This document shows, piece by piece, positions 15,940-51,088 of a stretch of DNA of 64,000 nt. Source of the stretch: Chrysoporthe austroafricana (taxonomy: Eukaryota; Ascomycota; Sordariomycetes; Diaporthales; Cryphonectriaceae); contig JYIP02000005.1 in NCBI GenBank assembly GCA_001051155.2, positions 1,612,001-1,676,000 of the forward strand, in the 5' to 3' direction. Each line of letters starts with the position of its first letter. The stretch's first letter is position 1. The notes beneath the pieces were generated by a model. It did not search any database, had not been told where the DNA came from, and saw only the letters and a list, made by a program, of their open reading frames with translations. The position numbers were made by a program, and so were the translations under genes.

Positions 15940-18083
15940 TTACATAAGCTCCAGTTCGTAATCCGGGGCCTCCCAGCTCGGCAGGTGTTCCTCGCTGGAC
16001 GAGGCCTGGACCAGCGCGCTGATGACCTTGATGCTCAGCCCGGGCACGTCGTCCGGGTCGACCTGGGTCCCATCGTTCTTGGCCGCAGTGACCCGGAGGT
16101 GAGATGTGAGGAAGGCAGCGACCTCGCCTGGGTCCAGGGACGAGACGGCTCCGTCAGCCACCTTGTCAACCAGGGCCTTCGTCAGCGGCACCGTGCTGGA
16201 GATGTACTCCGCGCCGGGGGCCATCTTGATCAGGCTCGCTACGGAGGGCGGGGAGGCGAACACGCCCATGGTGCCGATGTGAGAAGCGTCGGTGTCGAAA
16301 GACAGCTGCACCGAGAACGGCCCGTCGAGGCCTTGTCTCTCGACGCGGATGTTGGCGATCCACTCCCGGTACTGCCCCTGTTCAGAGATGATCCTGTTGA
16401 CAGGCAGTGACGGATCTGGTTGACGTGTTGAGCCGGCGTAGGAGTAACCCTTGTGGTGATGAGGACGTTGGGGCTGTGCGTGTTCCGAGCGCTTCGATGT
16501 GAGTGATATGCTGTTCACGCTATATCTGCCGTAGAGTTGGTTGATCACCGATGCTACTCCTGCCCGTCCTGCGAGGACCGAGGTCAAGTTTGAGAGCGAT
16601 ATCCCCACCAGCTCGGGATATGTATATCCCAGAGCCGTGGGGTCGCGAAGCATGTCTGAGTTCCAAAATGTCCCATTAGAAGAAGCATAAAAGGGCGTCA
16701 GTGCCGACGACGCGTCGAGTACCTGGCCAACGGATGTCGTGTACGAATTGTACCTCGCGACTTCAGGAGAAATCCAGGAGGTCGGGTGCATCGCTTGCCA
16801 CAGGGCAAGAAGGCGGTCTACCATGCAGTGGTGGAGGAAGAAGAGGGGGTCAAAGGCCGAGAAGGGCACAATGGTCATGTGCCCGTCTGAGCCGCCGAGC
16901 ATGGCGTGAACGTTGTCATGGAGGGACTCGAGCGAATCATACTGGGATGTATCTGCCGCCCAGCCCTCGTTGCTGAAGATGGTATAATTATCGTAGCTAG
17001 AGAAGAGATTGTAGAGTCTTTGTTGATTCTGGACCATGTGACTTATCAGATCTTGGTTGACGGCGGAGTTGTTGGATGGGGTGTCTGGGTCATCGTTCGG
17101 CGGAGCCCTCCGCGTGCTATCCCAGTCTGCCCACTGAGGTCTTCGTGAGTACGTTATTTCCCACAGCATAGATAACCTGGCTCAACTCACCGGCGTAATA
17201 TTGAAGAAGACAGAAGAATTCGGAGGATTAAAGCTATAAGTGTAGAGCGGGTTGGCAATAGTCTGAACCCCAGCTGGCCCGGAGACGTTGATCCTAGGTG
17301 AGTCTCCGACACTCGGGGGGAGAATGCTGCCACTTTCAGATGGAACGGCCGCCCAGTCGAAGTAAGGGACTCTGCAGTTGGCAGCTGCGGTCTCAAACAC
17401 GGCCCTGAGGCTGCTGCTGTACAGCGAGGCTATGTACTGGACCCGGCCACAAAGCTCTTGCTAGAAAAGAAAAGTGTTAGCTATATCGTGGTAACCCCCT
17501 CGGAAGGATGGCAATAGTCTCGCGGGACAGGTGGATCACGCTCACATACTTCGTACAAGGCCACATACGCGCGGTGCCATGTCGGGAAGAGGATATCCTG
17601 GTGATGACAGTAGCCGGAGTTTTGGTTGCCAGCAGTCGGCAAGACGCCACTCCACGACTGGAAAGGCACGCCATGGATGCCTGTACAAGATGAAATGCGT
17701 CACGTTAGTTTGAGGTCAGGAATGCGGTGGTTCGGGTTGTAAGAATACGAGTGAACGCAGTGCAACGTACTTGTAATGGAGAACCACGACGTAGGGTCCG
17801 ACTGATCGGTGTACTGCATCATGTCCAAAGCCAGGATGTACAAGGACCACATGTTCGCGTCCTGCTGGAGGTCGCGGATCTCTTGCCGGACCGGAACGAC
17901 TCCATCTGCGCCAAGGGGCATGGCGGAAGTGACGATGATGTTGTTCTCCTGGCGCTTGGCCCTCAGTGCTCCCACGACATCGAAGCCATAGTCGTAGGAA
18001 GTGCCCAGGACGAGAGAGATCAGGCAGCAGCATATGATGCTGAGACTGCAGGCTCTGCGGCCCTGACACGATCGAGATGACAT
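15940..18083 (-). CDS. Tyrosinase (type 3 copper oxidase), secreted or membrane-anchored
   Basis: Four exons on the minus strand (18083-17771, 17680-17550, 17460-17191, 17133-15940) encode 635 residues; introns are 90, 89 and 57 nt with consistent phases. A hydrophobic segment at residues about 10-27 looks like a signal peptide or signal anchor. The CuA site has His107 (IHGVPF), His131 in GYCHHQD and His140 in FPTWHRAYVALYE. Cys129 lies two residues before His131, in the position of the Cys-His thioether of fungal tyrosinases. The CuB site has His310 and His314 (ESLHDNVH) and His340 in FFLHHCMVDR. The enzyme should hydroxylate monophenols and oxidise o-diphenols. The C-terminal part, beyond about residue 400, matches the second domain common in Pezizomycotina tyrosinases. 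It is co-oriented with the neighbouring terpene synthase gene; a pigment role or a pathway role are both possible. Confidence 0.9.
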
Positions 18084-19225: not shown

Positions 19226-20667
19226 TCAGCACACCTCCTCAGGCAGGGCTGGCACGGGGACCTCTACGTTCACGATGGCCCTCTCATATGTCCCAACCAG
19301 CTCAGGGAACACCTTGGCGGCGCGCTCGGGAAAGCTGATCAGGAACTCGCGCCACTGCGACCTGCAGGCCTCGCACAGCTCGACGCCGCCGAAGCGATGT
19401 GTCGTCTCGGCCCCGTACGACACCCGGTACCCGCACGTATCACAGTCGCCCTCGCCGCCCTTCTCCAGGGACTCGGCCAGCCCGGGGATCAGCAGCTCCT
19501 CGCTGTTGGCGATGATGCGCCTGTACCTCTCGAAGTCCGTCTCCCCGGTCTGCGCCGCCTGGCTGGCCCGCAGGCTCTTCGCGTCGATGCGGTTCCAGAG
19601 CTTGTAGTGGTCACGCGTCTGGTCCACCACCGCCGCGTTCTCCTCGCGCCCGATCGTCATGTCCTCCTCGACGAAGCGGTACCGCCGCATCATCATGTGC
19701 AGAGGCCCGCCGAAGTAGCGCAGGAAGCTCGACACGCACGCCGTCTCCGGCCGCATGCACCACGCCGCGTCCAGCGCCCACAGCACCTCGCGGCACTGCC
19801 GGTACGCCCCGATCCGCAGGTCCGCCGGCATGTACGCGAACGTGCTGTTGGTCTCGCCCTCGCTCCGGTGCTTGTAGAAGGACACCGCGTCGTACATGGT
19901 GTCGCCCATCTCCGCGAGCAGGTCGAACTGCTCGTCCGTGAACCACACGTCGTCCTGGTCGCTGCACGCCAGCGCCACCGCGATCGTGAACCGGCACAGC
20001 GCGTCCGCGTCGCGCATCCGGAAGTACCGCTTCGGCGAGTGCGCCAGCGCGTTCACGTACCGCCGGAAGAACTCGCCGTCCCGCCGCTTGCTGGACTTGT
20101 CGCCCGACACGAGCAGGAACGTCTTGTACTCCCGCGCCATGGCGTGGTGGCCCGGCGTGCCCTTGAACAGGTCTGCGAGCACGCCGTCCAAGCTGTAGTT
20201 GAGGACTTTGTCGCCGGCTGTGACGTCCACCTGTGCACGATATGTATCAGCCTCCTGTGATTGCAGGAGTTTGCATATGAAGAGGCACTCACCAGGTCTC
20301 CCTTGAACTCGGCAATGATACCCATCACGATGATGCGCATAAACGCCACATAGCGGCTCCAGTTAGTGTAGTGCGGGATCACGGTCCGCGTGTACTCCCA
20401 GGCGGTGGCGAAGACCTCTCCCTTGACATGCTGCGGCAGGTTGATGCCGTCCAGGTCGTTAGCTATGTCCGGTGGGTAGTACCAGGTGTCTAGCTCCCTG
20501 GGGGCCGGCTTGGGCACATTTGGTACGTCAACAACTTCTTTCCGCATGATGGCTGGGGATGTGGCTTGGAAAGCTGGGACAGATACAGGAATAGGCAGGT
20601 TGCCAAGAAGCCACCAGTTGTTGTCTAAGTCTAAGGCATTCAAGTTGCGGTTTTGGGTGTATTCCAT
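19226..20667 (-). CDS. aba3: ABA3-type sesquiterpene synthase (alpha-ionylideneethane synthase family)
   Basis: Exons 20667-20293 and 20230-19226 (62 nt intron, GTGAGT...GCACAG, phase 0) encode 459 residues. The sequence carries the signatures I remember from Botrytis cinerea BcABA3: DTWYYPPDIANDL, WEYTRTVIPHYTNWSRYVAF, MGIIAEFKGDL then VDVTAG across the intron, GTPGHHAMAREYKTFLL, GETNSTFAYMP and GGPLHMMMRRYRFVEE. BcABA3 converts farnesyl diphosphate to alpha-ionylideneethane, the first committed step of fungal abscisic acid. It is unrelated to class I terpene synthases and has no canonical DDxxD/NSE pair. Acidic residues in DQDDVWFTDEQFD may serve instead (inference). The C terminus has two CxxC pairs (CDTC and CEAC). 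The gene is divergent from P450-1 with 1.1 kb between starts. The fold assignment is strong; the exact product is not proven. Confidence 0.88.
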
Positions 20668-21783
20668 GAAGACTATTTATGCGAGGGACACGCATCTATC
20701 CTCACGAGATGCCAAGCCCGGACCTCACTCTTTTCTCCGAGACAACACATATTTACTGAAGACAGTATATTACTATATCGTTGCACGCCGTTGTAAGGCA
20801 CCCTGTCAAGTATCTGTGTAGCCAGCTCATGCATACGTTGACTATGGTGTCTAGGGTATTTTCAAGGTCACTTGCCATATGCTGTGACCTATGTGGATGG
20901 ATCTAGGCTATTCGGTTCGTCGCCAAAAGTGGCGTCGTTGACCGTTGAGCATGGATCCATTCCATAAGACCCTGTAGATCCCAAATGCCGAACCAAAAGA
21001 CGAGAGCAGAGGATGCTTACTCCGAGGCGGAGTTATGCAGCAGTGGCAACAAGTGCCGGTGAGCCTCGCGCGGGAAGATCCATGAGTGATAACCCAAACT
21101 TAGCGTTGTTTTGTTGGGCTCGATACATCATGATCGATGGCCATCTGCAGACTCTAGCCGCGGATGGGGGATATGCAAGATAAGAAGCTAGGAAAGAGAG
21201 CATATAGAGAGATACTCCGAGCCGGGAGCACAGGGGGCGCATAGATTTGTCAACAGATCCAGATTCTAGTCCCTGTCCGTGAAGTAATATCAACACTGTA
21301 CTCGAGCGCAACGGGGGACTTAATATGAAACCCATTTGATGGCTTGAATCTCTTAAGTAATCATACAGTGAGCGTAGTAGAAAATTAGTGCCTTTATTTT
21401 AAAAGTGGACTAATAAGCAGTATTGAAATGTAATTATTTTCCAAATACGGCGAAAATTTGAAAAAGCTTAACGAGTAAGATTTCTGAGTAAACGTATAAT
21501 ATTTGCTTACTACGATGCAACTTTAGTAATATAAGAGAAGGCGTTTTCTTTGGACCACCTGACCTAGGTCGATCTTCAGCAGCACTGTCAGCTTTGATTA
21601 ATCGTCCTGCAAGACCCCGCACTATCGAACATTTACTCATTCCTGATACTGTTGTCCATCTCTCGTCGACGTCTTACCGTATGCCCCAAATTTCGTCCTA
21701 GGCCGCTTTCGCTTGAAAACTCGATTGTTGATAGCATCGCATGATCAACCACATGTAATACCTATAGCGCTGCATTTCCTTTC
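20668..21783. promoter_or_regulatory. Shared divergent promoter region of the ABA3-like gene and P450-1
   Basis: This 1.1 kb separates two divergent biosynthetic genes, the usual place for shared control in a fungal cluster. Its middle (about 21340-21560) is conspicuously AT-rich compared with the flanking coding DNA. I recognise no defined transcription-factor site. Confidence 0.5.
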
Positions 21784-23703
21784 ATGGCGTCCTTCTCTAC
21801 CCGCGACCCGTCTTCGGAGATGTCGTCGCTCCTCACGGCTACGAGCTGGGCCACGTTCGCCTGTCTTGGCGCTGGACTCTGCGCCCTTTACTACGTCCTC
21901 AGTGCGCTTTACGCCTGGAACCGCCTGCGGGGCATCCCAGCGGCCTCATGGACCGCCAACTTCTCCTACCTGTGGCTGGCTAAAACCACCTACTCGGGAA
22001 GGCAATACTGGGTACACCGGGACCTGCACAAGCGACACGGGCCTCTGGTCCGCGTCGGCCCCAACGAGGTCGTGACGAACGATCCGAAAGTCGTGAAGAG
22101 GATCTCAGGCACCGACAGTAGCTGGGCCCGCGATCCTTTCTACATCACGGGCCGCTTCAACCCGTACCACGACAACCTCTTCAGCCTGCTGGATCCCAAG
22201 GAGCACAGGCAGGCCAAGTCGCGCACTATCGCTGCGTACAGCGGCCGCGAGACGCCCGACCTCGAGGTTGGCGTAGACAGCCTGCTCAGGACCCTGATCG
22301 ACACGATCGGGACCAGATATGCCACCGCTTCGCCGGACTCGCCGGTGCCCCCTCTGCTGGATCTGGGCAGAATGAGCTGTTACTTTACCCTAGACGTAAT
22401 CACGAGGCTTGCCTTCGGCAAAGAATTCGGGTACTTGAGTGAGGAGAAGGACCATTATAACTTTCTGGGCAGTCTTCATGAGCTGTGGCCTCGCATGTCA
22501 ACATGTGCGGATGTTCCGTGGATAAGGAAGTTTCTATTCTCTTCCTTCTTTTTGAAGCTACTGGGGCCGAAACCGACAGATAAGAGTGGATTTGGGGCGC
22601 TCATGAGGTGAGTCTCCGGTGTCCCAAGACCGAGGCCCCCAAAATGGCATTCAAGGAGCAAAAAAACGAGGAAAGAAAAAGGTTGACTGATTTCACTCGT
22701 CTCTAGTGTTGCTAATTATCACGTTGGAAAACGATTCGCACCAGATGCCAAACCACAGCAGGATATGCTTGTAAGTTACCAATACTTAAGACTGCCAATG
22801 AGGAGATGATGGCTAATAGAGCACAAGGGCTCTATGATGAAACATGGGCTTAACCAGATTGAATGCGAAACCGAAGGTCTCTTTATGATCATCGCCGGAA
22901 CTGAGAGTACGGCGTCAGCCATCCGCTCAGCTCTCGTGCATACGATGACGAGTCCGCTCGTCTACCAGACACTCAAAGATGAGATTAACCTGGCTGTACG
23001 AGAAGGCAGAGTTTCCAGCCCAATTACCATACAAGAGGCCAAACAACTCCCCTATCTCCAGGTGAATGCTTCCCTCTCCACAATTCTCCCTAATTCTCTG
23101 ACATATCCATACTAATAAATCTCTAGGCTGTTGTCTACGAGAGCCTTCGGATGCGTCCGCCTCTAATCGGCTACTTCCCTAAGGTGGTGCCTCCGGGAGG
23201 CGAAAACATACTGGGGTACCATGTTCCCGCGGGCACGGCCATCGGCACCAACACGTCTGCGATCCTATCCTCGACTGACTTGTTTGGACCGGACGCCAGA
23301 ATATTCCGTCCCGAACGCTTCATCGAGCTCGACGACCAGCGCCGCAAGCAGATGGAGCGCGATGTCGAGCTCGCGTTCGGTCATGGGCAGTGGATGTGCG
23401 TGGGAAAGACGATTGCATTCATGGAGATAAACAAAAGTGTTTTTGAGGTGAGTCTCTACCCACTCTCTCTTTCATCTCATCCATGTGATGGCACGATGAC
23501 TCAAGCAACTAGTACAAGGAATGTATATTGCGTGCTAACTGGAACACACCACCTAGATCTTCCGCGCTTTCGATATGCAGATGCTAGATCCTTACGCCCC
23601 GAGCGACATCCTAACCTATGGGACTTTCCTTGAGTCCAACCTGAAGGTGAAGGTCACGAAGAGCGCTACTGCCACTGCTGCCCCGTTGCCGGATACTGTC
23701 TAG
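21784..23703 (+). CDS. Cytochrome P450 (P450-1), BcABA1/pisatin-demethylase-like
   Basis: Five exons (21784-22607, 22707-22770, 22828-23061, 23127-23447, 23557-23703) with phase-consistent introns of 99, 57, 65 and 109 nt encode 529 residues. An N-terminal membrane anchor covers residues about 18-40. P450 motifs are all present: the I-helix AGTEST (IIAGTESTASA), ExxR in YESLRMRPP, a PERF motif (FRPERFIEL) and the haem loop FGHGQWMCVGK with the axial cysteine. Parts resemble my memory of BcABA1 (RVGPNEVVTNDP, KHGLNQIECE, LPYLQAV), the P450 that oxidises alpha-ionylideneethane, but also the broader pisatin demethylase group. It lies divergent to the ABA3-like gene, so it is the best candidate for the first oxidation of the terpene. 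Substrate is inferred from context only. Confidence 0.88.
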
Positions 23704-25328
23704 ACCTGTAACTTAGGCTCGCCGTCAGATACTGCTGCTATAGCGCACTCAATTATATAGCACGAGATGACGACGTCAATGGTTCCGGAAAGCTTTTGCA
23801 AAGTGGATGGTCTTGCTTGCTTTACACGCAGTCGTGGTCAAACTCACCGCCATAGCTTGCTGGCCTGCCTCATATGGGGTATTCAAGATTGCAGGACGGC
23901 TGGTAGTGGAAATACACACTGTTGTAAACTATCATCTTCAAAAACACTACTGTCTCTAGAGATGGAATCATCTGCACAGTCCCCTTCGAGTTAGTCTTTC
24001 TATAAGCTTGTTCGCGGAAACTTTGATGCTTAACTCCAGCGGCCAAAAGCCATACCCTCATTATTGGAGATCAAGCTTCAATAATCTTCATCGGTGAGAG
24101 GCCCTTGGCGATGGTATAGTGTCATCACACCGCTGAATTTAGGATGACGATTTACATACAGCGATTCGTCATACGACCATGACCGCATGGTGAGATAGCG
24201 ACCAGATGTCTCTAAGAGCCGAGATTCAGGGCGAGCCGCATAATATTACCGTCCCTGGTATATGCATCACGATAGGCTTCTCTGAAGAATATGCCCACAC
24301 GGACTGACAGATACTCCGTATATAGATAAAGCAACCAAAAAATCCGAGTGAATATGGCGCGATGTCTCCTTAACAGGCAGGAGAATCCACATGCTATCCA
24401 CTTATTTTTCTTGGTCACTAATGGGGTGTCCGGCCCAAATGTTAGGTCTGACTGAGCGTCTCGGGTTTTGATAAAAGTATGTATTATGATCCTGGATCTG
24501 CCATCGCACACAACTAGCCCTGTTCTGAGTGTAAGCCTCCCGCATGTCTCTATTGTCTGACGTGCGGCCCTGCCAAGATTCCTATCAGAAGGATTCCGCA
24601 GAAGCTGCTTGCTCTATTGGGTGCCCATATGCCGACGCCATGATCTTCCCCAGATTGCTTATCTTCCCCAGATTATTATTTGGCGGGGAAGCGGGTGGCT
24701 GTATATACTCCGAGGCTACGGCATTTCAGGCTACGGCATTTGGTCTCGACTGGTGTCTTGAAGGTTCACAGTGCATGATTCTGCTTGTTCACTTTGTAAG
24801 ACTGTGATATTTGGTTCCACCAATCTTTAGATGTCTAGCCCTCATAGAACGTATACCGCGATTTCTCCTGTGAAATATAGTAAAAAAGGAAGTCTCGTTT
24901 ACGCTATTATGCTATATCGAATAAAAGTGGATATATTATAAAATAATATAAGCGATATTTTTAAGAATAATACTTTATAATTGTACAAAAAGAAAATGTA
25001 ATACAATACCTTCAAACCTTTTATACTACGGCCAAAAGTTTGCTAAATATTACATATTGCTAAAAAGAAATGCTTAGCTTTGTTTAGTTCCATTTAATTT
25101 AGTCTGATAAAGTCTATGTACTTGCAACCTTCGCCTATAGATTCTCCGACCTTTGTCATCACAATGCTTATAGATACATACGCCACTTACGGAACCGACT
25201 GTACATCCGCGCCGATATCTCAAGGAACTGTGGCAAGACTAAATATCTCTTGCTCACTCCCACAGCAACTTCCCAAACAGGCTGCACGACAAGTCGAACT
25301 TGACCAAAATAGCTGTTCCGATATCAAG
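23704..25328. other. Intergenic region between the two P450 genes
   Basis: This 1.6 kb has no convincing gene. It holds two small tandem duplications (24643-24677 and 24713-24741) and an AT-rich island at about 24830-25100 rich in TA dinucleotides. I looked for a Rossmann TGxxxGIG motif of a short-chain dehydrogenase and did not find one. Confidence 0.55.
24643..24741. repeat. Two short tandem duplications
   Basis: ATCTTCCCCAGATTGCTT is followed directly by ATCTTCCCCAGATTATT (24643-24677). About 35 bases further on, AGGCTACGGCATTT occurs twice with one base between the copies (24713-24741). Confidence 0.85.
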
Positions 25329-27214
25329 ATGAATAGTCTCAGCGCATCATCTCCTATGCTCCTGGGCGAATACCAGGTGTTGCCACTAACTCGGCTACCC
25401 TTGGTTGCCGGAACGATTGCAGTCGTGGTGAGCAACAACTCTCTCCCATATCCAAAACATTGGCAGAGTTTGACGACCGTTACTAAAATCCTGACTGTAG
25501 CTCATCGTGGGCTTCATTACCCGCGTCATTCAAGCACGGTTTTTCCATCCGCTGCGCAAGTTTCCAGGGCCTTTCCTGAATAGCATAACCTCCATACCAG
25601 CAGCCTATCTCGTGTACAAGGGAAATCAGCCCCAGGTTTTCAAGGAATTGCACAAAAAATATGGTTGGTCTCTACATTTACGTCTCTGGCGTGCTCCGCG
25701 TTGGACCTGACAGCGGCGATACTGATGTTACCATGTGACCTCCTAGGCCCCGTTGTGCGGACAGGGCCCAATGAACTTAGTTTCATCGGGGCAGACGCAT
25801 GGGAAGATATTTATGGCATTCAAGTAAGCGAGACCGTTCTGGGAGACTTCATAGTAGGGGACCTGCTGACCAGTTTGGGGCGCAGAAAAACGGGCTCAAC
25901 TTCCAGAAAGATCCGGCCTGGCTCGCAGTCGTGTCGCCCAAGGATGGCCAGACGGGCGTCAGCCTGGCCACCCCTGAGACGCACACACGGCAGCGCAATG
26001 CCCTCGGTGCTACTTTCACCAACGATGCGCTGCTGACACAGGAGTACATTCTGCAGACTCACGTGGACAAATTTATGGGGGTGATGAGGAGGTTTGCTGC
26101 CGAGAAGAAGGCAATTGATTATTCCCACTGGTGTAAGTTCTTCAAAGCCACCATTCTTTCTACTAAGACGTCACACGCTTGTAGATAGACCTGATGCTGA
26201 GTTTGCAAAATAGACACATATGCCACCTTTGATGTGATCGGCGACGTTGTCTTCTCTGAGCCCTTTGGCTGCTTGGACGAAGGCGAGGAGACCCAGTGGG
26301 CGAGGGCGATCAACGACATCTTCAAATCGGGCGCGTGGGAGCAAGCCTTCGGACAGGTGGCAGGCGTCGGCACGCTGCTTCACAGACTCATGGTGAAGGC
26401 GCTCATCCCCCACGAGCCGAAGGTCTGGCGCCAGAAGCACCTCTCCAAGTCGACCGACAAGACCCTGCGCCGGATCGCGGACCCGGACCGGCCGCACCCA
26501 GACATGATCGGCCACATCCTGAAGAACAATCAGACCAGGAAGGCCCGCCTCTCGGGCACGGAGCTGATCCTGAACATGGTCCAGTTCATCAGCGCCGGCA
26601 GCGAGACGACGGCCAGCCTGCTGACGGGCTGGACCTATTTCATCATCGCGAACCCCCACGTCTACAAGCGCGTCGTGGCCGAGGTCCGCGACGCCTTCAA
26701 GAGCAAGGAGGAGATCACCTGGGCCAGCGTCGGCAAGCTCAAGTACCTCGAGGCCACCGTCCACGAGGCGCTGCGCCTGGTCTCGCCCGCACCCTGCAAC
26801 CAGCACCGTGTCGTGCCGCCCGCCGGCCAGGGCGCCACCATCGACGGTCACTTTGTGCCCGCCGGCACCACCGTGGCCGTCGCGCCCTGGGTGGCGGAGC
26901 GCCACCCGGACAACTTCACAGACCCGGAGAAGTTCGAGCCCGAGAGGTGGCTGGGCGCCGAGAGGTACAAGAACGACAAGTTGCACGCCTCGCAGCCGTT
27001 TGGCCTGGGCGTGAGGGCCTGCGTTGGCAAGAACCTGTCGTACTTTGAGGCTCGCCTGCTTATGGGAAACCTTCTGTGGCATTTCGACCTGGCCTTTGAC
27101 GAGAGCGAGGAGGCGAAGGAGGCGCGGAAGAAGTGGGAGGAGACGAACATGTTGGTTTGGCATGTCTGGGTTAAGCCTCCCATGCTGGTTCAGCTCACAG
27201 AGCGGAAGTTCTAA
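25329..27214 (+). CDS. Cytochrome P450 (P450-2), isotrichodermin C-15 hydroxylase-like
   Basis: Five exons (25329-25427, 25501-25663, 25747-25823, 25886-26132, 26214-27214) encode 528 residues; introns are 73, 83, 62 and 81 nt, one with the weaker donor GTTGGT. The first exon supplies a membrane anchor that continues across the first intron into FFHPLRKFPGP, the proline hinge typical of fungal P450s. Further motifs are RTGPNELSF, I-helix FISAGSETTASLL, ExxR (HEALRL), FEPERWLG and the haem loop FGLGVRACVGKNL. The C-terminal half has the look of the CYP65/Tri11-like group, which hydroxylates terpenoids and polyketides. It follows P450-1 in the same direction, and with the ABA3-like synthase it forms a candidate pathway in which two P450s oxidise one sesquiterpene, as BcABA1 and BcABA2 do. 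The exact substrate is unknown. Confidence 0.88.
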
Positions 27215-27797: not shown

Positions 27798-30700
27798 TCA
27801 TGAGGAGACCGTCAACGCCTGCGCCCCCTTCTGCCACTCATCCAATCCTGTCCTCTTCATCGTCCTCCCGGGCCGGTCCTTATCCGCCGGGTCAATGTGA
27901 TACTTCAGCTTGACTCCCATGGCCGCGAGCTCCACGTCCAGATACTTCAGTGCACCGGGGACAGCAATGACCGTGACATCCTCGCCACCAACCCACTGGT
28001 TCCCCTGCCCGTCCTCCCAGATCTCCCCGTCCACCTCCATGGCCATCTCGTCATCCAGACGGTGTGCGCAGTTCCTGCAACGGACGGTGTCGACCGTCCT
28101 CTTCTTGCCGACGTACGGCGTGACCGTTGGCTGCACCGACAGGAATGAGCCGCACTTACGGCAGATCCATGTCTTGGTGTAGTCGGAGCAGTTGAGCAGG
28201 CGGTCTTGTAGGAGGAAGGCCGTGCCGTGGGCAAGGAGGGCGTCGCGCTCCATTTCACCAACACGAATACCACCGCCCTTCTTACGGCCCTTAATAGGCT
28301 GACCGGTAAGTGGAACGACGGGTCCCGTGGTTCGTACTTGATATTTGTCGTTCACCATGTGACGTAGACGTTGGTAGTAGACGACACCGAGGTAGATGTC
28401 TGCAGCAAACTCCTCGCCCGTGATGCCCGAGTACATGGGCTCGTTGCCGTGGAAATTGTAGCCGGCCTTCATAAGCTGGTGGCCAAAGTAGTCCGCGGCT
28501 GTGTTCTCTTCGTCGAACTTGAAGGGTGTCGAGTCCTGGGCAAGTCCGTGGAGAGCGCCCGCCTTGCCGGCCAGAGACTCCACAAACATACCGATTGTCA
28601 TACGAGACGGGAAAGCATGGGGGTTGATGATGACGTCGGGCTGGATGCCCGACTCGGAGAAAGGCATGTCGATTGACGGCCATTTCTGGGAACACACACC
28701 CTTCTGACCGTGTCTGGAGGAGAATTTGTCACCGATGACAGGAGACCGAGGTATCCTGAACTTGATGGACAACGTCTGAGCTGGCTCATTGCCGTTCTCG
28801 CTCCCGATCACTCGGACCTCCTCAATGTATGCGACTTCATCCTCCTTGTACTTCTCGAAATGTGTCACACCATCCTTATTCTCGAGCCCACCGCGGCCGT
28901 CAGATGATACTGTGTGCCAAGCACAGATCAAGTCGCCCGACTTGATTTCTTGGCCAATGTATGGCATGCCATCCGCGTCAAGGGAGTCGCGCTGCCATGG
29001 GCGTGTCGGGCTGTTTGGCGCAAAGCCAAACATCTTCTCTATTGTGGCAGAGGATCGAGTTCTCGAGTCATCTTTCAGACTGATTTTCTTGGTCTTGTAG
29101 ATAGTTCCGTGACCGAAACCCCTCTCGTGTGCGGATTTGTTGATGATCATGGCGTCGTCCATGTCGTAGCCCGTGTAGGAGATGACAGCGACGACTGCGT
29201 TGGTGCCGTTGGGGAAATTATCGAAACCATACGCGTTGTGAAGAGGCGCTCTCACAATTGGCGTCTGTCCAGTCTGTAATCGGTACATCTTGTTGTCTGT
29301 TCGGTGTCTGATGGCAGCTCCCGGTGTTCCCATTGTCTGTTTACCCATCTGACACTGGTACATGTTTCGGGGAGATTGGTTGAAATCGGAGAACGGGGTC
29401 ATGTTGGCCAAAATGGATAGGATATTCGTAGGGTCGAACTCGACGTGTGTGGATTCACCAGAGGCGATCTCCGAATCGACACAGGCGATAGACATGTAAG
29501 GTTGCTCATACGGTCCCACGAAGTCTTCCTTCTCTAACGGAAGGTACTTGACAGGTCTCACCATACGCGCAGAAGAGGACGACATGAAGATGCCTGGGTA
29601 TGATCCTCCATTGGACGGTGGGACGTAGCCAATTTCGAGTTGTTTCGGTACGTTGTGGGAGCCTTCGACTTTCCAGTACCTCAGAGTGTCTGCGATCCTC
29701 TTGGACTCTTTTGGTGTGCACCAGCCGATGATCTTGCCATCGAGCAAGACTGGAACACTTTCAGAAGTAGCAGCTGAGGACGTCTCCACCACACCGAGCT
29801 CCACGGCCAATTGAGGCACAGCAGATGCATCAACGCTGTCGGTCATGATGATGCACTTGTGTGCAAGATGGTTGAGCAGACCACAAGGCGAGCCATCAGG
29901 CGTGTGAACGGGACACAAGAAACCCCATGATTCCGGCAGCAACTTTCGCACCGTCGTCGTTTTCAACTGCGCAAAGAAGCTACCACGATGAACCATGCGG
30001 AAATGACTGATGAAACGTAGGAAGTTGAGCTTTTCCGCGACAACCGTAAAGCCAGAGACCTGCTGCAAATCCAAACCAGATGGACTCTGCAGGTTGCCCG
30101 TCGAGAGGAAATACTCCAGAAGCTGGCCGACATTCTCTGTTACCCTCCGGAATATCGCAGCTGGAAAGTCTTTTCCGAATGCCTGGGACGTGAAGTCGTT
30201 TGCGGGCTTCTTCCTAATATAATCCCTCAACGAAGCCCTCAGGTTCACAGCCAAGAGCTCTTCGAGGCGCTCCTTCAAGATCTGGCCATACAGGAAACCA
30301 CCGAGAAGGATCTCTTGGTTCTGCACGGCATCAGGGTTGTCCACCGCGCAATCACCAGCAACAAGCGCATAGAGCTTTCGAATCATGAAAAGGAGCATCT
30401 TGAACTTGTCGGCGTCTTGCTCCTGGGTCACATTCACGTTGCCCAAGTGCACCAGAACGATCCGCCGCAGGAATTCTGTACCCACATCGTAGTGGGACAT
30501 GGTGTCTGGAACGCCTAGCACAACCCTGAATTTCTCTCCAAGATATGCTCTGGTCTTGCTCTTGCTGTACAGGCCGTACACTTTGTACGTCCGGAGAAGC
30601 AGTTCCACGCGGTCCGTCAGAAAGGTGTTCTCCGTGCCCGCGGAGTCTGCCGGGCCGATCAGGCCCTCAAAAATCTCGCGGTCGTTTGTTTCCACGAGTG

Positions 30701-31561
30701 CCTTCAAGATCATCATGACGGGCACGAGGTATTCGTTCTTCCTCCATGAGAACCGAAAGGTGACGTTTCCGTCTTCTAGGTAGTGGAGGACGTTCGTCTG
30801 GGATGTTTCGTCTGGTCGTACACATCGCATTATGATACCGTAAGGGGTGTATGCCTGTCCTCGATTCGTGAAACTCGGACGATTGATCGCGAGAGGGAAA
30901 TTGCGCTTGTTCATCATCAGCAGCCGGATGATCTTCTCGTTTCCGTTGACGATGAAGTAGCCGCCCAATTCTTCCGACTCCTCTTTCCTCTGTACGAGCA
31001 AAGCTGGCGAATTGTTCTCGAGATGGCACTTATTGGACTGTGCGTTTGTCAGATCTCTGCACAGGACAACGAGGCTTGACATGCGCATACCTTGACCATG
31101 ATAGGCATGTTGCCCAGCTCTCGGACGAACTCGTGTGGATCTCCATCGTTGATCCTATACTCGAGAGTCGCGGTGAGCTTACCACGATATGTTGAATGCC
31201 TTTCTCTGCACTCGGCCGGGTAGATCTCTCGGTTCTTGGCGAATTTGTTGCTCGGCGGGAGGAGCGATTTCTGCAATGATACGCTCTTGTATCGTATGGT
31301 CAACTTGTTCCTAGCGCCTCTGGAGGAGCCGTCAGAGCTGTCGAAGAAGGTCTTCGTCCCAATGTCTGCTAGTCCATGGTCTATGAGACCTTTGCTCCCG
31401 TCTGATGGGAAAAGAGCGTTGAAGGACTCGATGTGCGGGTTGACGGCGATCTGGAGGAGAGGGTAGGCGCTATGGTCGGTAGGAGGGTGCCGGAAGAGGT
31501 TCTCGCGGCGTAATGTGTTGTATTGGTGATCCCACTCGGTTTTCGTTCCTGCTGGAGCCAT
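27798..31561 (-). CDS. RPA135: DNA-directed RNA polymerase I second-largest subunit
   Basis: Exons 31561-31091 and 31037-27798 (53 nt intron, phase 0) encode 1236 residues. The join gives the conserved GNMPIMVK then SNKCHLE. The protein has the full order of an RPB2-type beta subunit: N-terminal protrusion, ESEELGGYFIVNGNEKIIR, lobe, fork region (LCPVHTPDGSPCGLLNHL), hybrid-binding domain with YTGYDMDDAMIINKSA, wall, the KFSSRHGQKGV segment, and a C-terminal zinc clamp (WICRKCG and VRCRNC). The N terminus (IESFNALF) and the DGVTHFEKYKEDEVAYIEEV segment fit Rpa2/Rpa135 rather than Rpb2 or Rpc2. The length (yeast 1203) agrees. With Rpa190 it forms the catalytic core that transcribes 35S rRNA in the nucleolus. 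Nothing looks damaged. Confidence 0.94.
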
Positions 31562-41240: not shown

Positions 41241-43029
41241 TCAAGCCAACGAGATACTGATGAATGAAGTATCTGGTGCCATAGCTTCGCCGTGCATGAT
41301 GTTCCATGCAAAACACCAGCTCACAAGAGAATATCCCGCATCCTTCTCAGTATTTTGAGATCCCGTCGTCGACTGCAGTGACCAGGCTGCTCCAGATTCT
41401 GGTCGCAAGATAAGAGGCAGTCGGCAGCCCGGTACAACGCAAACAATGTCCCCTGTTGAAACGTTCGGTGGCCCAATGCAGAGGGTGCCTTGCTCTATAA
41501 TGAAGGCCTTCCATGTGTCCACGCGCTGTGCCATGGCACGATGATAGACGTTTCTAGATATACGAACCATATCATCATTACTGGTACTGGAATGCAGCCA
41601 CGATAGCCATTCGAAGAAGGCTTCACTGTATTCTGACCAGTCGACCGGCTCATCGTCAATGTTCAATCCAAAAATGAGGCTTTGCCCGACAACGTCAACC
41701 CAGCTTGCCTCGGTCACCTCGCCAGGCTGTCGATGCCTGAGAGCCAGAATGGCTTGTAAAGCTTTTTTCTGGCCGGTTACGGACCACGACTGGAAAGGAG
41801 GGCAGGTCTCGGCCACGACACCTAAGGACATGACGTCCAGCTCGAGCCGGTTCGACGTCAATCTTCGGGGTTGTCGCCGGAGTGGACCACCAGTATTCCA
41901 GGAGCCTGCTTCGCAGACAACGAATGGCTCACAGTAGGAGTGAGCCCTGAAATCGGGGACCCAAGTCGGCAGCTCCGAAGGTCGCGACCGATTCTCGAGA
42001 CCACCCAGGGCCAGCACATCAAGCGACACCCCGCGAAGGAGCAGGGCCTCTGCCGTCTTAGTGTACACTTCCTCCGCCGTGATCGTGTAATCCGGTCGAG
42101 GCACCGGCCGATCGTGGTCTCCGATGCCCAAGAATCCATACACAAAGTCGCGCTTGTCCGTCGCCTCGGCATGAAACGCCGCCTCCAGCAGCCTTTCCCA
42201 GCGCACCGACCCGTGATCGAGAAAGTCCTGGCGAATATCTATTACCCGGGTCACGTTCCAGAACCCACGCAGTAGAGGGCCATCTTCAGCTTGCAGGAGA
42301 GCCCGCTCATTAAACTTCCAGATCGCGAAGACACTGTCGCGGAAGGTGTCGAACGCCACGCTGTCCGCACCACAGGCCACGACCACATTGCGGCTGAGCG
42401 TGATTTCCTATATAAATGTCATGATCAGGTCATACAAAGGGGTGAGAGGATAATGTCGCTTAACCTACCTGTATGGTCCATACACGATGAAACCAAGGGC
42501 GAGAGAACAGCGAGAAAACAGCATCCAAGCCACCCGCAAGGTCCGCTTCCGACGCCAGCTTCTCCCAGTCCTCAGGCCAAGACAGCCCTCCCTTCGCCTG
42601 CATAAAGCTAAAGGCCATGTATGTCAAGTCTGTTCCCTCTCCGAGCCAGAGAAGGACCTGCTGTGCGGAGGAATAGACCTGGCCCATAAGGGCGACCTGC
42701 TGCGCCCTCTCGTGCGGATCATTCAGGTTCATGCAGAGCGCGTCCACCCATATCGTGAGCTCTTTGCCCTTTAGTATATTGTCGAATAGGTGATTTAATG
42801 TCTTCGAGAGAGTAAGCGAGCAGCCGTTAGGGAGGCTGATAGCAGCAACAGGTGTTGTATCCTCCCAAGCGTACGAGACAGCTGTGTATGGGATGTCGCA
42901 GTCATCGAGGCATACAATTTTGAAGGTGCAAACGAGGTCTTGACTGTCATCTGAACCTGTGCCATTCTCCTGCACCTGCAGAAGTCGGATCCAGTTGCCC
43001 TGTGGGAGCTGTTGGTAGATATCAGTCAT
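41241..43029 (-). CDS. HET-domain protein 2
   Basis: Exons 43029-42469 and 42407-41241 (61 nt intron, GTAGGT...ATATAG, phase 0) encode 575 residues. An in-frame ATG at 43092 would add 21 residues. I prefer 43029 because YQQLPQGNWIRLL after it matches the usual opening of this HET subfamily. The HET blocks are PYTAVSYAWED, IWVDALCMNLNDPHERAQQV and RPWFHRVWTIQ, joined across the intron to EITLSRNVVVACG. The rest (YGFLGIGDHD, LPTWVPDF) follows the layout of the common 6-OR/HET protein group. It differs clearly in sequence from HET-1, so the two are not a recent duplication. Function beyond self/non-self recognition is not inferable from the sequence. Confidence 0.9.
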
Positions 43030-45266
43030 TGTAGGAAATGAGGAGTGAAAGGGAATAAATCCAAGTTCCAAGGTCGTGAAGCAGAGTTGCATTCAGCTTA
43101 CTAGGCCCCCTGCATGCGGACCCACCTGACGAGAACCTGATCAAGTGTGGTTCCTTTCCTAAGCCTATCGAAGAGTCGGCTAGGAACATAAATATGGTGA
43201 CCATAGAGAGAGTGCCCCTGGGGTTCTAATAAACTATATAGAGACTTTGTCATGCTCTACAAGCGGTGGCTGGAGTTTTGCAAATAATTCCCAAGGGATT
43301 GGTCAATTTTTGAAATCTGAGGGAGGGATTGGTCGAATTCTACGTGCAGAAGTATCTATAACTCCCCCTCCTTAATAAAATCCTACGTGGTTGATGAAGA
43401 GAGTAATAGTGAAAAGAAAAGCGTGCTATCGCGATCGCTTATTTAGGAAGTCCTGTATAGTAAGTGGTAGTAAGTAGCGGGCGTAGCAAGCAAAAAGGGT
43501 CCAGAAGTCCTTCCTCTGGAATATAGCTGGAGCTTCTGAAGATTGGAATTTTATGCCGTCGCTATCGTCATAAATAACTCTATTGGCATCTATCTCAGGC
43601 AAGTCAACTTCAATAACCCTATTGCTAGTTACGAATGCACAAAGAACACCCCAAAGAACACCCCGCCTCCGGTCCGGTCCTCTGCTCCGTTGATTGTTTT
43701 CTCGCTCATTTGCCGGGCTGCTAATTGAATTCGCAAGAATAATAAGTGGCAATTCGGTTCACGAGAACACTGGCTGGCAATTGAATGGGCGGATTCAGAC
43801 TACTTCATTAACAACATCTCAGTGATAAATGACAACGCGTATTTGTTAGAGCTGACCGTCAAGCTTAACACGAATTTGCTTACAATCGATCCCAATTCAA
43901 TTTTAATTAATGCCTATACTGCTTCATACACTACAGGCTGACGGCCGTATTCAAATTGGCATTCCGCCGCCAGTAAAGGGTCGCCATTCGCTAATATTCT
44001 TTCGCTAGAGCGAGCATAATGCATTCTAGGCTATTTTTGGCTTCTGGGCGAGGAAGGGTTTGACCTTGAATGATTGTTTAGCATTCACACCCATATTCCA
44101 TATCTATTCTCTAATAGTAAGTCCAAACCCACCGAAGCTATGTAAAATGACTTCAAATCACTAGCAAGAAAAAAATAAGGAAAAAGCTGCGTACCGTGAG
44201 GTGTATCGGTCTAGGCAATGCAAGTTTTTATATAGCTTCGAATATTCCCCAAATGAACTAGTGTTAAAGTTAATGTTTCACGATCCTAACAAGGTGGCAG
44301 CCGAACGTGAGGCAGACAGATAGCAAAATACGATGGCCTTGGGCGGAAAGCCCGCCAAATTTGAAGTCGTCATTATCGCGTTCCTCTACAGCAGGACCAT
44401 GTGCGAGGTGTTGTTAGAGCAGCGAGGGATATTAAAGGCATTGCGGCCAAGCAGGATCATAATGAGCACATCTTCCTATACACCCTTCAGCACAAAGTCT
44501 TGGGCTAGGAGCTTGTACAGCACTAGCTGGCTAATCCATTACCCGATCAAGCAGACATATGCCAAGGGAACCGCGATAGCTGGCTCGGACTCGCTAAAGG
44601 CCGTTCGAGAGGTGAAGCAGATCATGCACTCGGGACACCTCGGTAGCGGACACAACATTTATATACTTAGCCGCCTCAATCAACGACTCGTGTGGTAGCT
44701 TCGTAGCTAGTCAGAAACTCGGCCTCGACCCGCAGCAAATAATAGACGTGTTGAATATCGGTATGAGTGTTTGCTTCCCTAACCTCATGAGTTCCGGCGA
44801 AATAGACCTATGCTGGAGTACGATAATGGCTTTGGACTAGCATCGCTTGTAGAAAACCTGAGCTATCAGGGATTTCATTAAGTGTAGCGCTTTCGAGGTC
44901 AAGCTTTTGGAATTGCTGTAGAGGAATCTGCAATTCTCACTTCTTCCAAGTCGACCCGGGTGCTGTTCATACGATTGATTCCCTGGGTAGGAGAAGCGAT
45001 CACGGGTCAAACTGAAAAAGACGGAGAGCATCAGGAACATATTAATAATGGAAAACTTCGAGCACAGGTTGAAGAGCCTCAATCGGCCCTCACATTAAAA
45101 GCGTAGAGGTCGATGACTAATGTATGGAAAACTTATTTCAAAACTGGAACAATTTGCTTGTTGTCTCTTCGAATACGGAAACAAGAAACACACTCAACAG
45201 TGATGCCCCCCCCCCCACATACACAACGACATCTGAGAAATCATCAACACCACCTTCCATGTCTCC
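43030..45266. other. AT-rich, relic-like region
   Basis: This 2.2 kb is visibly richer in A+T and in stop codons than its surroundings. Two short frames (43426-43752 minus and 44333-44698 plus) have no match I recognise and no transposase catalytic motif. A poly-C run lies near 45204-45217. I read the region as old, possibly RIP-mutated repeat DNA, but I could not name an element. Confidence 0.45.
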
Positions 45267-47007
45267 CTAAAACTTGACTCCAATTGCGTTCTTTCTTCTG
45301 CGGACCTTCATCTTGTTCCCTGGATGAAAGAAGAGAAATTCATGCACACAACTGGGCTTCAACTGTTTTCCATCGACGAACGAAAAGTCATACTCATCCA
45401 ACAACTTAACCAGCACAATCTTAGCAGCAATGTCCGCGATCAAACGGCCCGGACAAGCCCACCTACCGGCGCCCCAAGCGAGGATATCTGTATCAACACT
45501 ACGAAAAGGTCGTGCTCGATGCTCCTCGAGCGCCTTGTCGTCAGAACAGAAGCGGAGGCCGTTGTACGTCTTCGGATTCTCGAAGATATTCGGATCTGTA
45601 GCACGGGAGGGCCCAGACATGGTAATGAACTGACCTTTAGATAGCTTGACGCCACCTAAGATGCAGTCCTCCTGGACAACTCTGCTGTAGACAATCAGAG
45701 TGCCAGGTGCAAGGCGAGCCGTCTCCTTCATAGCTGATTCGAGTTTATCAAGGCTTTGCAGGGCATCCAAATCCCATCTTCCGTCGATGAGGGTTGCGTG
45801 CTTGGTGCGGATCTCATCATGCACTGCTTCTAAGACGTTTGGATGTGCCACGATATCGGAAAGCGTTCGGCACACAAAATTGGCAATGCTGTAAGTCGAG
45901 CCGGCTGCGACCGAGCCGCATAAGGTTGTGAGTACGTCAGGGTCACGTTCCAACTCAGTCCTCCCATCCTTGACCATCCATGAGATTAGATCTGGGTTCA
46001 ATCTTGATGTACCATCGTCCGCTTTACTCAATTCTTTTTGTCGCAGTACTTCAGGTTTGACGAAGCTGCCTAGCTCCCTCCATGCACGCTCAAGCCTCCA
46101 CTTGGCAGGGAGAAGCCAGACAAGGAGCGATTGCAAACATGATGGCACACAGCGCATGGCAAAGGCTGTTTTGAAAACTAGAGACAACTCGTTTAGCCAT
46201 CATATCCTGCTTGAAAATACGGGATATCAGAAGGAATCGTACCATCTTCGGTGAGTTCGTAGGTCAACTCGATGAGCCTTGGATCTTGAGACATCTTGGG
46301 TCCGTACAACACTAGAGCGATACCCTGGCTGAAGCATCGAACCGTAGCTGGGAGCGGACTCATGACCATCCAATCTTCACCTTCTTTAGGGAAGAATTCT
46401 TCCAGAGAGGACGAGATTCGAGCCGCTATCGGAGCAAAAAGCTCTGGGAGGGCCGGGCTGATGCGTCCTTGCAACATGCGCACATGGTAACTTGTCTTCT
46501 TGACAACTTTCATACCCGTCAAACTTCCAAGTAGTGTGAACGCATGTGATTCTCTGCTATTCAAAACGGTCGTTGGAAGTCGATTCAGCGCTGCAATGTG
46601 ACGCGATGGAAGTACGATGAGTTCCTTGTCGCCCCGAGCGAGTATGTAAGGTCGCCCTTGGGCCTTCCAGCTCCTCGTTAGTAATTTCGTACATATGTCA
46701 AATAAGCAGTGTCACCCACCCTTTTGTCTGCATTTTCCAAAATTGTCTGTGCCCACACAGCCCAACGCAGGCGTGAGAACAGTGACGGCTCGAACGGGAA
46801 CAGCTTGTTGGCGATGAAGAGTTCGTCATGGCTTCTAGTCATTCCCCACGTAATATATAGTATGAGAAGCACGGTGGTGATAGTTCTATGAAGACTTATA
46901 AGTCCTGAATCAATTGAAAATATGTATTCATAGAGCCTCGTGAGGATGGGCGAGTTCAGAGCACCAACCTCCACAGGCTCCAAAAGATAGCTTGAATTAA
47001 TTTCCAT
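45267..47007 (-). CDS. Cytochrome P450 (P450-3) of the diterpene-type cluster
   Basis: Three exons (47007-46720, 46663-46243, 46177-45267) encode 539 residues; introns of 56 nt (GTGGGT...TGGAAG, TTACTAAC branch) and 65 nt (GTACGA...CTCTAG). An N-terminal membrane segment (TVLLILYITW) is followed by KRAQGRPYILARGDKELIVLP, the usual start of the fungal CYP503/ophiobolin/gibberellin-type P450s. ExxR is KETARL; the PxRF-like motif is TYNGLRF; the haem loop is WGAGRWACPGR, with Trp in place of the usual first Phe, as is common in this group. The I helix reads CGSVAAGSTYS and lacks the classic Asp/Glu-Thr pair. Members of this group oxidise diterpenes (CYP503 is ent-kaurene oxidase in gibberellin clusters). 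The position beside an MFS gene, a GST and a diterpene synthase fits a tailoring oxidase. Confidence 0.9.
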
Positions 47008-47479: not shown

Positions 47480-49126
47480 TTGCAGCCTAATCGGGCCATT
47501 TTTGTAGTCTGGATCAGCCGGCACTTGGGCGCTTCAGTAGTATGGGATCTTCATCACCAACTTGGCGCCTCGGGCATCTTCGCTGGGGGATTTACTCTTC
47601 TCACGACCATCATTCCGCTACACAAGCGAGCGATCTGGACCGGCACTATGAGTTCAACGTTCGCGATAGCTAGCATCGTGGGACCTGTGTTGGCTGGGGC
47701 CCTCACTCAACACGCTACCTGGCGTTGGTGCTTCTATATCAACGTAAGTCTCCCAATTGGGGCCATTCTGTGTAATGCTTGAAAGCCGTGCCTGTCAGAG
47801 CTGACCGCCAATTAAAAGCTGCCAATCGGGGGCGCCGGAGCTGTGGTTTTCTTCTTTCTAGTCCATATCAAGGCCGCCCGAACGGAAAATGCGCCATGGC
47901 GGGAGAAGTTGGAAGGTATGGATCTTTTGGGATTCACACTGCTCGCTGGCTCCGTGACAATGCTCTTGCTGGCTCTCAACTGGGGCGGAGGAGCCTATGC
48001 TTGGTCCTCGTCCGTGGTCGTTGGGCTTTTCGTCGGGGCTGGCACAGTGATGGCCCTCTTCATCCCGTGGCAACTCCATCGCAAAGACAACGCTCTTATC
48101 CCGTCGCGGCTATTTTGTGTGAATCGAAACCCAGCCCTCATCTGTGCTGCATCCTTCTTCGTCAATGGACCCTTCCAGGTCATTATATATTGGCTCCCCA
48201 TCTGGTTTCAGGGAGTTCTCGGCTCGTCTCCTACCCAGAGTGGTATTAACTACTTTCCTACTGTGGTTGCGGATGTTCTGGCCGCATTTATTGGCTCGGG
48301 CATCGTGATGCAGATTGGCTGGTGGAACCCTTTCCTACTCTTCGCTGAGGCGGCGGTATGCATTGGGGGTGGTCTACTCAGTACTATTTATCCAGATATA
48401 TCGGGCGCACATTGGGTCGGATATCAGATTTTTGGTGGCATAGGGTACTCACTCGCTTCCAATTTGGTAAGTAACATTCTAACCCTTGCCCCCAAACTTC
48501 AGAAAAATACAGAGCGGGAATTTCGTTAATGCCTGCTACCTCCAGTCGCACCTTGCGATGCAATCCTCATTGCCGCAGGATCTGGTGCCTACTGGAGCCT
48601 CCACACTTCTGGCTATAATTTCCACCAGCTGCGCGATCTTCATGGCTATTGGCGATGCTGTCTTTGAATCTCGGCTCAAGGCTAACCTGAGCCACGTCGT
48701 ACCGAGCTCTGTTGTCAACAAAATTATTTCAGTAGGAGCAACCAATATCGACGCTGTAGTCAGCGCCGCAGAGCTGCCTGCTGTTGTTGAGCAGTACAGT
48801 AAATCTGTCACGGAGGTCTTCGTAAGTTCTCTATCTGTTTAGATGTCCACCTTCTTCTGAACCGAGCCCCGGGCTTACTCGCCGCCACACAACAATCCAT
48901 AATACTGTTTACACGGCTAAAACAAGGAGAAAAAAAAAGTGTAAAGAGTTGCCACTACATCTTGTTTGAGGGCTAAAAATGCTGACTTTGAACATCCTAA
49001 ACACAGTACATTCCTACAGTGGCGCCAGTCATTTCCTTTATTTTGGTAGCTTGTTGCAAGTGGATCTCAACGAAGAGTAAACAAGGCAAGGTACAAGCTG
49101 ATGGCAAGAAGGACGAGCCTGTCTGA
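47480..49126 (+). pseudogene. MFS drug:H+ antiporter (DHA14-like), 5' part decayed
   Basis: Recognisable exons are 47480-47743, 47819-48466, 48546-48821 and 49007-49126, with phase-consistent introns of 75, 79 and 185 nt. They encode GASGIFAGGF, HATWRWCFYIN then LPIGGAGAVVFF, then about eight membrane segments, ending at a TGA at 49124. The layout matches fungal DHA14 exporters from roughly TM4 to the C terminus. The family normally has 120-150 more residues at the start. Between 47101 and 47340 only a decayed, frame-broken relic is visible (IPTFS and RFGSSDIS in one frame, TTTAESRARKILTVYFT in another). The TM4 motif itself carries an extra segment between two LGAS copies. I infer a pseudogene, or a gene with an unusual N terminus. 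It is divergent from P450-3. Confidence 0.65.
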
Positions 49127-50055: not shown

Positions 50056-51088
50056 TCAAGACTTATCTGCTGTAGCCTTGTCCGCATCTGCAATGCTCGC
50101 TTCATACTCCTGGAAGTTCTTGGTGCCCTTGGGCATGCCATTCCAATCAAGTCCCTGCTCATCCATCAGACGGGCGCGAATCTCCATCGCTTTCACCCAG
50201 GATGGTCGCTTGACCATCCGCTCGTGCCAAGCCTTTACGTGAGGGAAACCTTCAAACTTCTTCTCATCGGAAACCCCAAGAGTTGCATCTAGGCGATCAT
50301 TCCAGGGAACGAAAGCCATATCGGCAAACGTCATGCGGTCGCCGATTAGCCACTGCTTATCCGCAGGCTTAGCAGCGAGCACACCGTCAAGAACACCAAG
50401 CACGCGCTTGATTTCATTAGCGTAGCGCTCAATAGCAGACGGGATCTTCTCTGGATGCAGATATGTGAACCTGAAAATTCCATGATCAATCTTAGGACCG
50501 GACTGTCGTGTACTTGATAGGCGACATAACTCACCATGTGCACTGTCCGAAGTACGGACCTTGGCCACTGATCTGGAACGCGAGCCACTGGCCACAGAGA
50601 GTCTTCTCCTTGAATGTATCATAGCTAATTTTCTTCTCCGTATCGTACTGCTGGCTGAGATAGCCCAAGATAGCACCTGACTCCCAAAGCGTGATGCCTG
50701 TGTTCGGATCCTCGATGGCTTATTCATAGGTCAGTTTTAGGTTGTGATGGAATATTGAAATGTCTGGGTGAAACGAGGAGGCTTCACTCACCAGGAACAC
50801 GACCATTAGGGTTGATATTGGTGAACGGTGGCTTCTTGATGTTCTCGAACCTGATAGATTCGATCTCGTAGGGCACGCCCAGCTCCTCAAGGACAAAGAT
50901 GACCTGATATCACCGTGTCAGAGCGATTTAAGTGCGCCAGACGCGCAGGAGTCTGATAAAGTTACCTTCCAGGGGTTTGGGCCCGGTGCTGTTGGTCCAC
51001 TTATTAGCATGGGAAAGAGCGCGGACTCGACTTTGTTTCGTGGGGGCTTCCACTTACGTGCCAGCCAGACGCGGATTGGTTTCGTCAT
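50056..51088 (-). CDS. Ure2-like glutathione S-transferase
   Basis: Five exons on the minus strand (51088-51058, 50988-50966, 50903-50792, 50718-50535, 50470-50056) encode 254 residues. The second exon is only 23 nt, yet the joins rebuild WLAPPGPNPWK then VIFVLEELGVPYE, then NPNGRVPAIEDPN with the cis-proline region of the thioredoxin fold, and ISGQGPYFGQ. The C-terminal helical domain includes WLIGDRMTFADMAFVPW, which carries the GST N-capping box. This is the Ure2p-like fungal GST class, often found in secondary-metabolite clusters, where members conjugate or isomerise reactive intermediates or protect the producer. It is divergent from the diterpene synthase across 875 bases. A general detoxification role is the alternative. 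Confidence 0.92.

Follow-up and report, generated by a model that had tools for sequence, protein, structure and literature searches.

The three genes lying between positions 19226 and 27214 of the window, a 64,000-nucleotide stretch of the Chrysoporthe austroafricana genome (contig C18, positions 1612001-1676000, in a genome of 48.15 Mb on 22 contigs), probably constitute a fungal abscisic acid (ABA)-type sesquiterpenoid cluster, arranged aba3-aba1-aba2 without a linked aba4, whose enzymes would lead towards ABA-diol and ABA; every catalytic step in this scheme is drawn by analogy from Botrytis. The designation as an ABA1-3 cluster is well supported; the statement that it makes ABA is not. 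A sequence-only reading of the locus had proposed that three of the four ABA roles are clustered here, and homology, gene trees and the predicted fold of the synthase bear this out, with ABA3-, ABA1- and ABA2-like genes all found. The features of the locus are as follows (P450, cytochrome P450; aa, amino acids):

19226..20667, minus strand: ABA3-type sesquiterpene synthase gene (splicing and translation, matches to proteins named BcABA3 or ABA 3, predicted fold)
20668..21783, no strand: divergent intergenic region between the synthase and the ABA1-like P450 genes (1.1 kb; an AT-rich stretch and two TACTCCGAG sites)
21784..23703, plus strand: ABA1-like P450 gene, 531 aa (splice model, homologs of which several are named aba1 or BcABA1, tree, heme motif)
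23704..25328, no strand: intergenic region between the ABA1-like and ABA2-like P450 genes (1.6 kb; an AT-rich stretch and one TACTCCGAG site)
25329..27214, plus strand: ABA2-like P450 gene, 528 aa (splice model, homologs, tree, heme motif)

The synthase gene reads from an ATG at 20667 to a stop codon at 19226-19228 and encodes 459 aa in two exons (20667-20293 and 20230-19226), separated by a single GT-AG intron of 62 nt (20292-20231). The ABA1-like P450 gene has five exons (21784-22607, 22707-22770, 22822-23061, 23127-23447 and 23557-23703) with GT-AG introns, and the ABA2-like P450 gene also has five (25329-25427, 25501-25663, 25747-25823, 25886-26132 and 26214-27214). The resulting intron counts, one in the synthase gene and four in each P450 gene, go beyond what the sequence-only reading had given. 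After GT-AG splicing the three frames are complete and end in normal stops, and all three genes are intact. Their order is aba3-aba1-aba2, with the synthase gene divergent from that of the ABA1-like P450.

The protein search with the synthase is represented by the best 120 of 334 matches. BcABA3 (P0007) is 67% identical to the synthase across 83% of the query (phmmer E 3.8e-179), and 61.5% identical over all 426 columns with letters in both in the multiple alignment. P0007 is identical over 440 aa to the crystallised BcABA3 (PDB 8zac), which scores 613.8 bits against the synthase. The closest named relatives among the matches listed are from Aureobasidium subglaciale (79%), Diaporthe sp. PMI_573 (78%) and Colletotrichum liriopes (78%), with more distant ones in Fulvia fulva (72%) and Leptosphaeria/Plenodomus (58%). 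A pattern search found neither the DDxxD/E nor the NSE motif in the synthase or in BcABA3, as had been expected of an ABA3-type enzyme without canonical metal motifs. Pfam returned no family at E <= 0.01 for the spliced synthase, and the assignment is therefore based on homologs, trees and fold.

The fold was predicted with AlphaFold2 from 46 sequences (mean predicted local distance difference test score 79.4, with residues 1-42, 311-323 and 333-342 under 50). Against the PDB the model gives nine matches at E <= 0.001, every one to an ABA3 structure (BcABA3, RuABA3 or SkABA3), the RuABA3 structures from Rutstroemia being matched both with and without FsPP. By target length, the template modelling score is 0.95 against BcABA3 (8zac_A) and 0.97 against RuABA3 (8zae_A), the BcABA3 match showing 64% identity at E 1.1e-32; other terpene synthases match only at E 0.018 or weaker. 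At all 52 columns without variation among 45 homologs (the start methionine included) the synthase has the same residue, and it has the common residue at 129 of the 131 columns conserved at 90% or more. A genome search with P0001 gave the two exons of the synthase gene and no other place at E <= 0.001. Thus, full-length homology and the modelled fold identify 19226-20667 as encoding a full-length ABA3-type sesquiterpene synthase, with its catalysis predicted, and uphold the BcABA3-like identity first proposed for it.

The two P450s also fall into the expected families. Among the matches listed, the ABA1-like P450 is closest to proteins of Cryphonectria parasitica (80%), Colletotrichum incanum (75%), Aureobasidium (75%) and Dothistroma (70%), followed by a Cadophora protein named aba1 (68%) and a 509-aa Botrytis cinerea protein (66%). 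The ABA2-like P450 is closest to proteins of Zasmidium (79%), C. incanum (78%), Aureobasidium (78%), Dothistroma (70%) and Fulvia (70%), with a best match at E 2.6e-289, and is 56% identical to a 527-aa protein of Botryotinia calthae. In the available part of PMC4227169, bcaba1 of strain TB-3-H8 encodes 509 aa and bcaba2 527 aa, in five exons each, and the B05.10 model of bcaba2 has four exons. The two Botrytis-type proteins are taken as ABA1 and ABA2 by length, organism and rank, since neither record is so named. Heme-binding motifs are present in both window proteins (FGHGQWMCVG in the ABA1-like, FGLGVRACVG in the ABA2-like), as are ExxR motifs (ESLR and EALR, respectively), and the ABA2-like protein also contains AGSETT. 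The divergent P450 that had been said partly to resemble BcABA1 does so by its homologs, several of them named aba1 or BcABA1, and by its tree, and the second P450 adjoining it proves to be an intact ABA2-like gene.

Similar associations are seen in other fungi. ABA3-like genes have ABA1- or ABA2-like matches on what is putatively the same contig, recognised by its length, in at least 16 of 103 cases, the 103 being the 120 listed ABA3 matches minus 17 on contigs under 5 kb; the figure is a lower bound, as only 61 of the 120 ABA1-like and 31 of the 120 ABA2-like matches entered the comparison. ABA1-like and ABA2-like genes share a putative contig in seven cases, three of them with ABA3 as well, and the locus tags of the trio's homologs run consecutively, or nearly so, in both Apiospora (PG984_005041-5043) and Gaeumannomyces (RB595_010201/203/204). 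P450s form a large family, with at least 111 exon-level matches in this genome, and two members from other pathways might adjoin an ABA3-like synthase by chance; these recurrent associations argue against such an origin, as do closest relatives drawn from largely the same lineages as those of the synthase and the ABA1-like matches already named aba1, and it is exceedingly improbable.

Trees were built from 53 of the 120 listed ABA3 homologs and from 31 and 27 of the 120 listed for the ABA1-like and ABA2-like P450s, with Shimodaira-Hasegawa-like approximate likelihood-ratio test (SH-aLRT) support and no bootstrap. The set that holds the window protein has eight rows in the ABA3 tree (support 99), the others being C. 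liriopes, Aureobasidium, Fulvia, Diaporthe PMI_573 and three unnamed sequences. Its counterpart in the ABA1 tree has six rows (100), shared with Cryphonectria, C. incanum, Dothistroma and two sequences from Aureobasidium; that in the ABA2 tree has eight (100) and joins the window protein to C. incanum, Zasmidium, Aureobasidium, Dothistroma, Fulvia and two unnamed sequences. The lineages grouped with the window proteins are thus largely common to the three trees, and in all three the Botrytis/Botryotinia rows lie outside the window's set; deeper branching among the ABA3 rows is without resolution. The expectation that the synthase would fall in the BcABA3 clade is borne out in part: all three proteins belong to the ABA3, ABA1 and ABA2 families, but each occupies a separate, strongly supported branch that is not beside Botrytis.

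This branch is seen in Colletotrichum, Aureobasidium and Dothistroma/Fulvia, and as single genes in Diaporthe, Cryphonectria and Zasmidium. Colletotrichum and Cryphonectria on the one hand, and Aureobasidium and Dothistroma-type fungi on the other, belong to distant classes. Judged from the sequences, this mixture of lineages agrees with the horizontal spread proposed for ABA clusters in section 8 of PMC10482981. Co-inheritance is incomplete in the rows seen, because Diaporthe PMI_573, whose ABA3 is in the window's set, has its ABA1-like protein (P0157, 54%) in another branch and apparently on another contig.

The locus parallels bcaba1-4 of Botrytis cinerea, having a homologous synthase and both P450s, the order aba3-aba1-aba2 and, as in TB-3-H8, five exons per P450. 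It differs in being without aba4, in the single intron of its synthase gene, against none in TB-3-H8, and in the placing of its proteins in another branch of each tree. The Botrytis cluster begins with bcaba3 and ends with bcaba4 (section 6 of PMC4227169), the gene numbers running aba4-aba2-aba1-aba3 (PMC6876084, available part). ABA1-ABA3 sets without a clustered ABA4 are already known from the Colletotrichum spaethianum complex (C. tofieldiae, C. liriopes and C. incanum) and Diaporthe helianthi, as described in section 8 of PMC10482981, and the trio in the window is a further member; ABA3 of C. liriopes and both ABA1 and ABA2 of C. incanum lie in the window's branches. Unlike the joint ABA-BOT cluster of Colletotrichum and Diaporthe, the trio has no canonical terpene synthase of the botrydial type beside it: none of the 12 genome matches to PF19086 is on contig C18, so that no BOT2-like synthase lies by the trio, although the other BOT genes were not searched singly. 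In Leptosphaeria maculans (Plenodomus lingam), the other system proposed for comparison, ABA3 (P0054, 58% identity) and ABA1 (P0145, 55%) homologs are found on putatively the same contig; both are more distant than the Botrytis proteins and lie in other branches. Homologs of the ABA cluster had been noted in many fungi in 2017 (PMC5395610, available part).

By analogy with Botrytis, the ABA3 enzyme would cyclise farnesyl diphosphate to alpha-ionylideneethane, which the ABA1-like P450 would oxidise to alpha-ionylideneacetic acid; this would be converted to 1',4'-trans-ABA-diol. Some ABA, if any at all, might then be formed from the diol by a dehydrogenase encoded elsewhere or by non-enzymatic oxidation. 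In Botrytis, bcaba1-3 are essential and bcaba4 is not, a bcaba4 knockout yielding ABA-diol and traces of ABA (PMC6876084 and PMC11210036, available parts). It follows that the window would contain what the diol needs, with the last step unlinked or non-enzymatic. Given three intact, matching genes, the fungus is by this analogy probably a maker of ABA or a close relative.

Several observations weigh against this scheme. No aba4 is linked, none of the 55 genome matches to the short-chain dehydrogenase/reductase (SDR) query falling inside the window. In C. tofieldiae, ABA and its precursors are reported as undetected in culture on three media, and the authors of the report suggest that the cluster may yield a metabolite other than ABA (section 9 of PMC10482981). 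The C. tofieldiae cluster is probably of the window's branch type, judging from its relatives C. liriopes and C. incanum, both named in the same paper as carriers of putative ABA genes; P0270, the only C. tofieldiae P450 among the ABA2-like matches listed (49%), falls outside that branch and is perhaps a different P450. At 40 positions the five branch members in the alignment have a residue in common that is not the one in BcABA3. Position 136 of the synthase is N, as in the rest of its branch and two Aspergillus rows, and is G in 39 of 46 rows. Finally, the ABA2-like branch stands on a long stem of 0.61 changes per column.

It may be that cyclisation or P450 regiochemistry has shifted in the window's branch, so that the product is another ionylideneethane-type or farnesyl-diphosphate-derived metabolite. 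The separate branches (SH-aLRT 99, 100 and 100 in the three trees) and the unlinked aba4 are consistent with such a change, while 67% identity with BcABA3 in the aligned region, the shared fold and the retention of every invariant column speak for an unchanged reaction. The 40 branch-shared differences point both ways: the commonest residue in the other 40 rows is that of BcABA3 at 18 of these positions and that of the window's branch at 13, and because of these 13 part of the difference is Botrytis's own. Likewise, the culture result and the authors' own alternative favour a changed product, yet the negative may reflect a silent cluster, and the C. tofieldiae cluster is reported, in the available part of its source, to activate host ABA pathways. 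A changed product is nevertheless retained as a possible, if doubtful, explanation because of the C. tofieldiae result, the branch-shared residues and the long ABA2-like stem. It can be suggested tentatively that the window belongs to a distinct, perhaps horizontally spread ABA1-3 branch whose product would be an ABA-diol-type or changed ionylideneethane metabolite acting on the plant ABA pathway. If true, a non-ABA product of this branch would explain both the unlinked aba4 and the ABA-negative C. tofieldiae cultures. The sequence-only suggestion that the organism may produce ABA, a precursor or a related metabolite stands as regards the ABA1-3-type cluster; ABA production itself, set against the C. 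tofieldiae cultures, is conjectural.

Fungal ABA clusters offer a route by which plant-associated fungi may shift the hormone balance of their hosts. The Botrytis pathway has been worked out; the product of the window's branch has been looked for in C. tofieldiae without success. A trio that is compact and intact, without a neighbouring canonical terpene synthase, unlike the Colletotrichum ABA-BOT arrangement, provides a clean case in which to establish the products of the enzymes and the need for aba4.

The search for aba4 was made with the dehydrogenase portion of P0257, a record from Colletotrichum tanaceti whose ABA2-like P450 continues into an SDR. The SDR of P0257 ends in GGWRC, as does BcABA4 when read from a primer printed in PMC4227169. 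Three candidate SDRs of 45-50% identity lie on other contigs, at C1:101822-102433 (ending GGWIC), C19:1088237-1088875 (GAWI) and C17:931827-932153 (GGWTC); at this level of identity none is assignable as the aba4 ortholog.

The intergenic regions bear on the possibility that the locus is a relic, silent or decayed. Each contains an AT-rich stretch (around 21330-21580, 34% GC, and around 24840-25130, 27% GC, in a window of 55% GC; TA/AT ratio about 1.2), and the two stretches are perhaps the remains of mutated repeats. These stretches speak for a relic, but splicing leaves all three frames complete, both P450s retain their motifs and an identity of 78-80% with the closest named relatives points to continued selection, which makes a relic very unlikely. 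The same regions carry the three copies of TACTCCGAG (21018-21026, 21213-21221 and 24706-24714) that occur in the 64 kb, against 0.34 expected; none of 100 shuffles reaches three. The sequence was picked after the fact from shared 10-mers, whose number (6 against 2.9 expected, p ~0.11) is unremarkable, and across the window the shorter TACTCCG shows no enrichment (6 occurrences against 5.1 expected). For these reasons TACTCCGAG remains a hint of a putative regulator site.

Bacterial ABA3 proteins share the fold and family of the synthase and differ in sequence, SkABA3 of Shimazuella kribbensis being 34-36% identical and five actinobacterial proteins, among the matches listed, 57-61%. ABA3 homologs in Amycolatopsis and Streptomyces have been noted before (PMC5395610, available part); a literature search on bacterial ABA3 gave no article on the subject by title among the matches listed. 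At three of the five actinobacterial loci (L013 6664-9104, L015 5162-7542 and L016 6610-9104), an open reading frame (ORF) with a P450 heme motif ends no more than about 40 bases from the start of the ABA3 match, and L013 has a second such ORF. The neighbouring actinobacterial P450s are 68-71% identical to one another and 22-31% to the two in the window. It is possible that this arrangement represents a bacterial gene pair for ionylideneethane oxidation. Elsewhere among the homologs, the mushroom genus Mycena has many ABA3 relatives of 51-68% identity (P0005, P0006, P0008 and others), with three listed for M. rosella, M. vulgaris and M. rebaudengoi.

The trio is flanked on the left by a tyrosinase-like gene (ORF 15943-17181) and on the right by the gene for the second-largest subunit of RNA polymerase I (ORF 27801-31154). 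The Pfam scan covered 29 ORFs of the window together with the spliced synthase; between the flanking neighbours the only other ORF scanned, 17700-18080, had no Pfam match, and small genes are possible there. Further to the right, at 51904-55106 on the plus strand, lie two ORFs with matches to structures of copalyl diphosphate synthase, the first to 8v0f (E 6.6e-63) and the second to 9q3i (E 8.4e-08). The first contains SVYDTAW, which we take to resemble the class II diterpene cyclase motif. From these matches, 51904-55106 is a candidate diterpene synthase locus; together with three possible tailoring genes it lies 18-28 kb from the ABA-type trio, with the RNA polymerase I subunit gene between. 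The possible tailoring genes are:

45270-46199, minus strand: P450, possible diterpene tailoring gene
47816-48526, plus strand: major facilitator superfamily (MFS)/TRI12-like protein, possible diterpene tailoring gene
50059-50730, minus strand: glutathione S-transferase (GST) C-terminal domain, possible diterpene tailoring gene

An ORF with a HET (heterokaryon incompatibility) domain lies at 42463-43092 on the minus strand.

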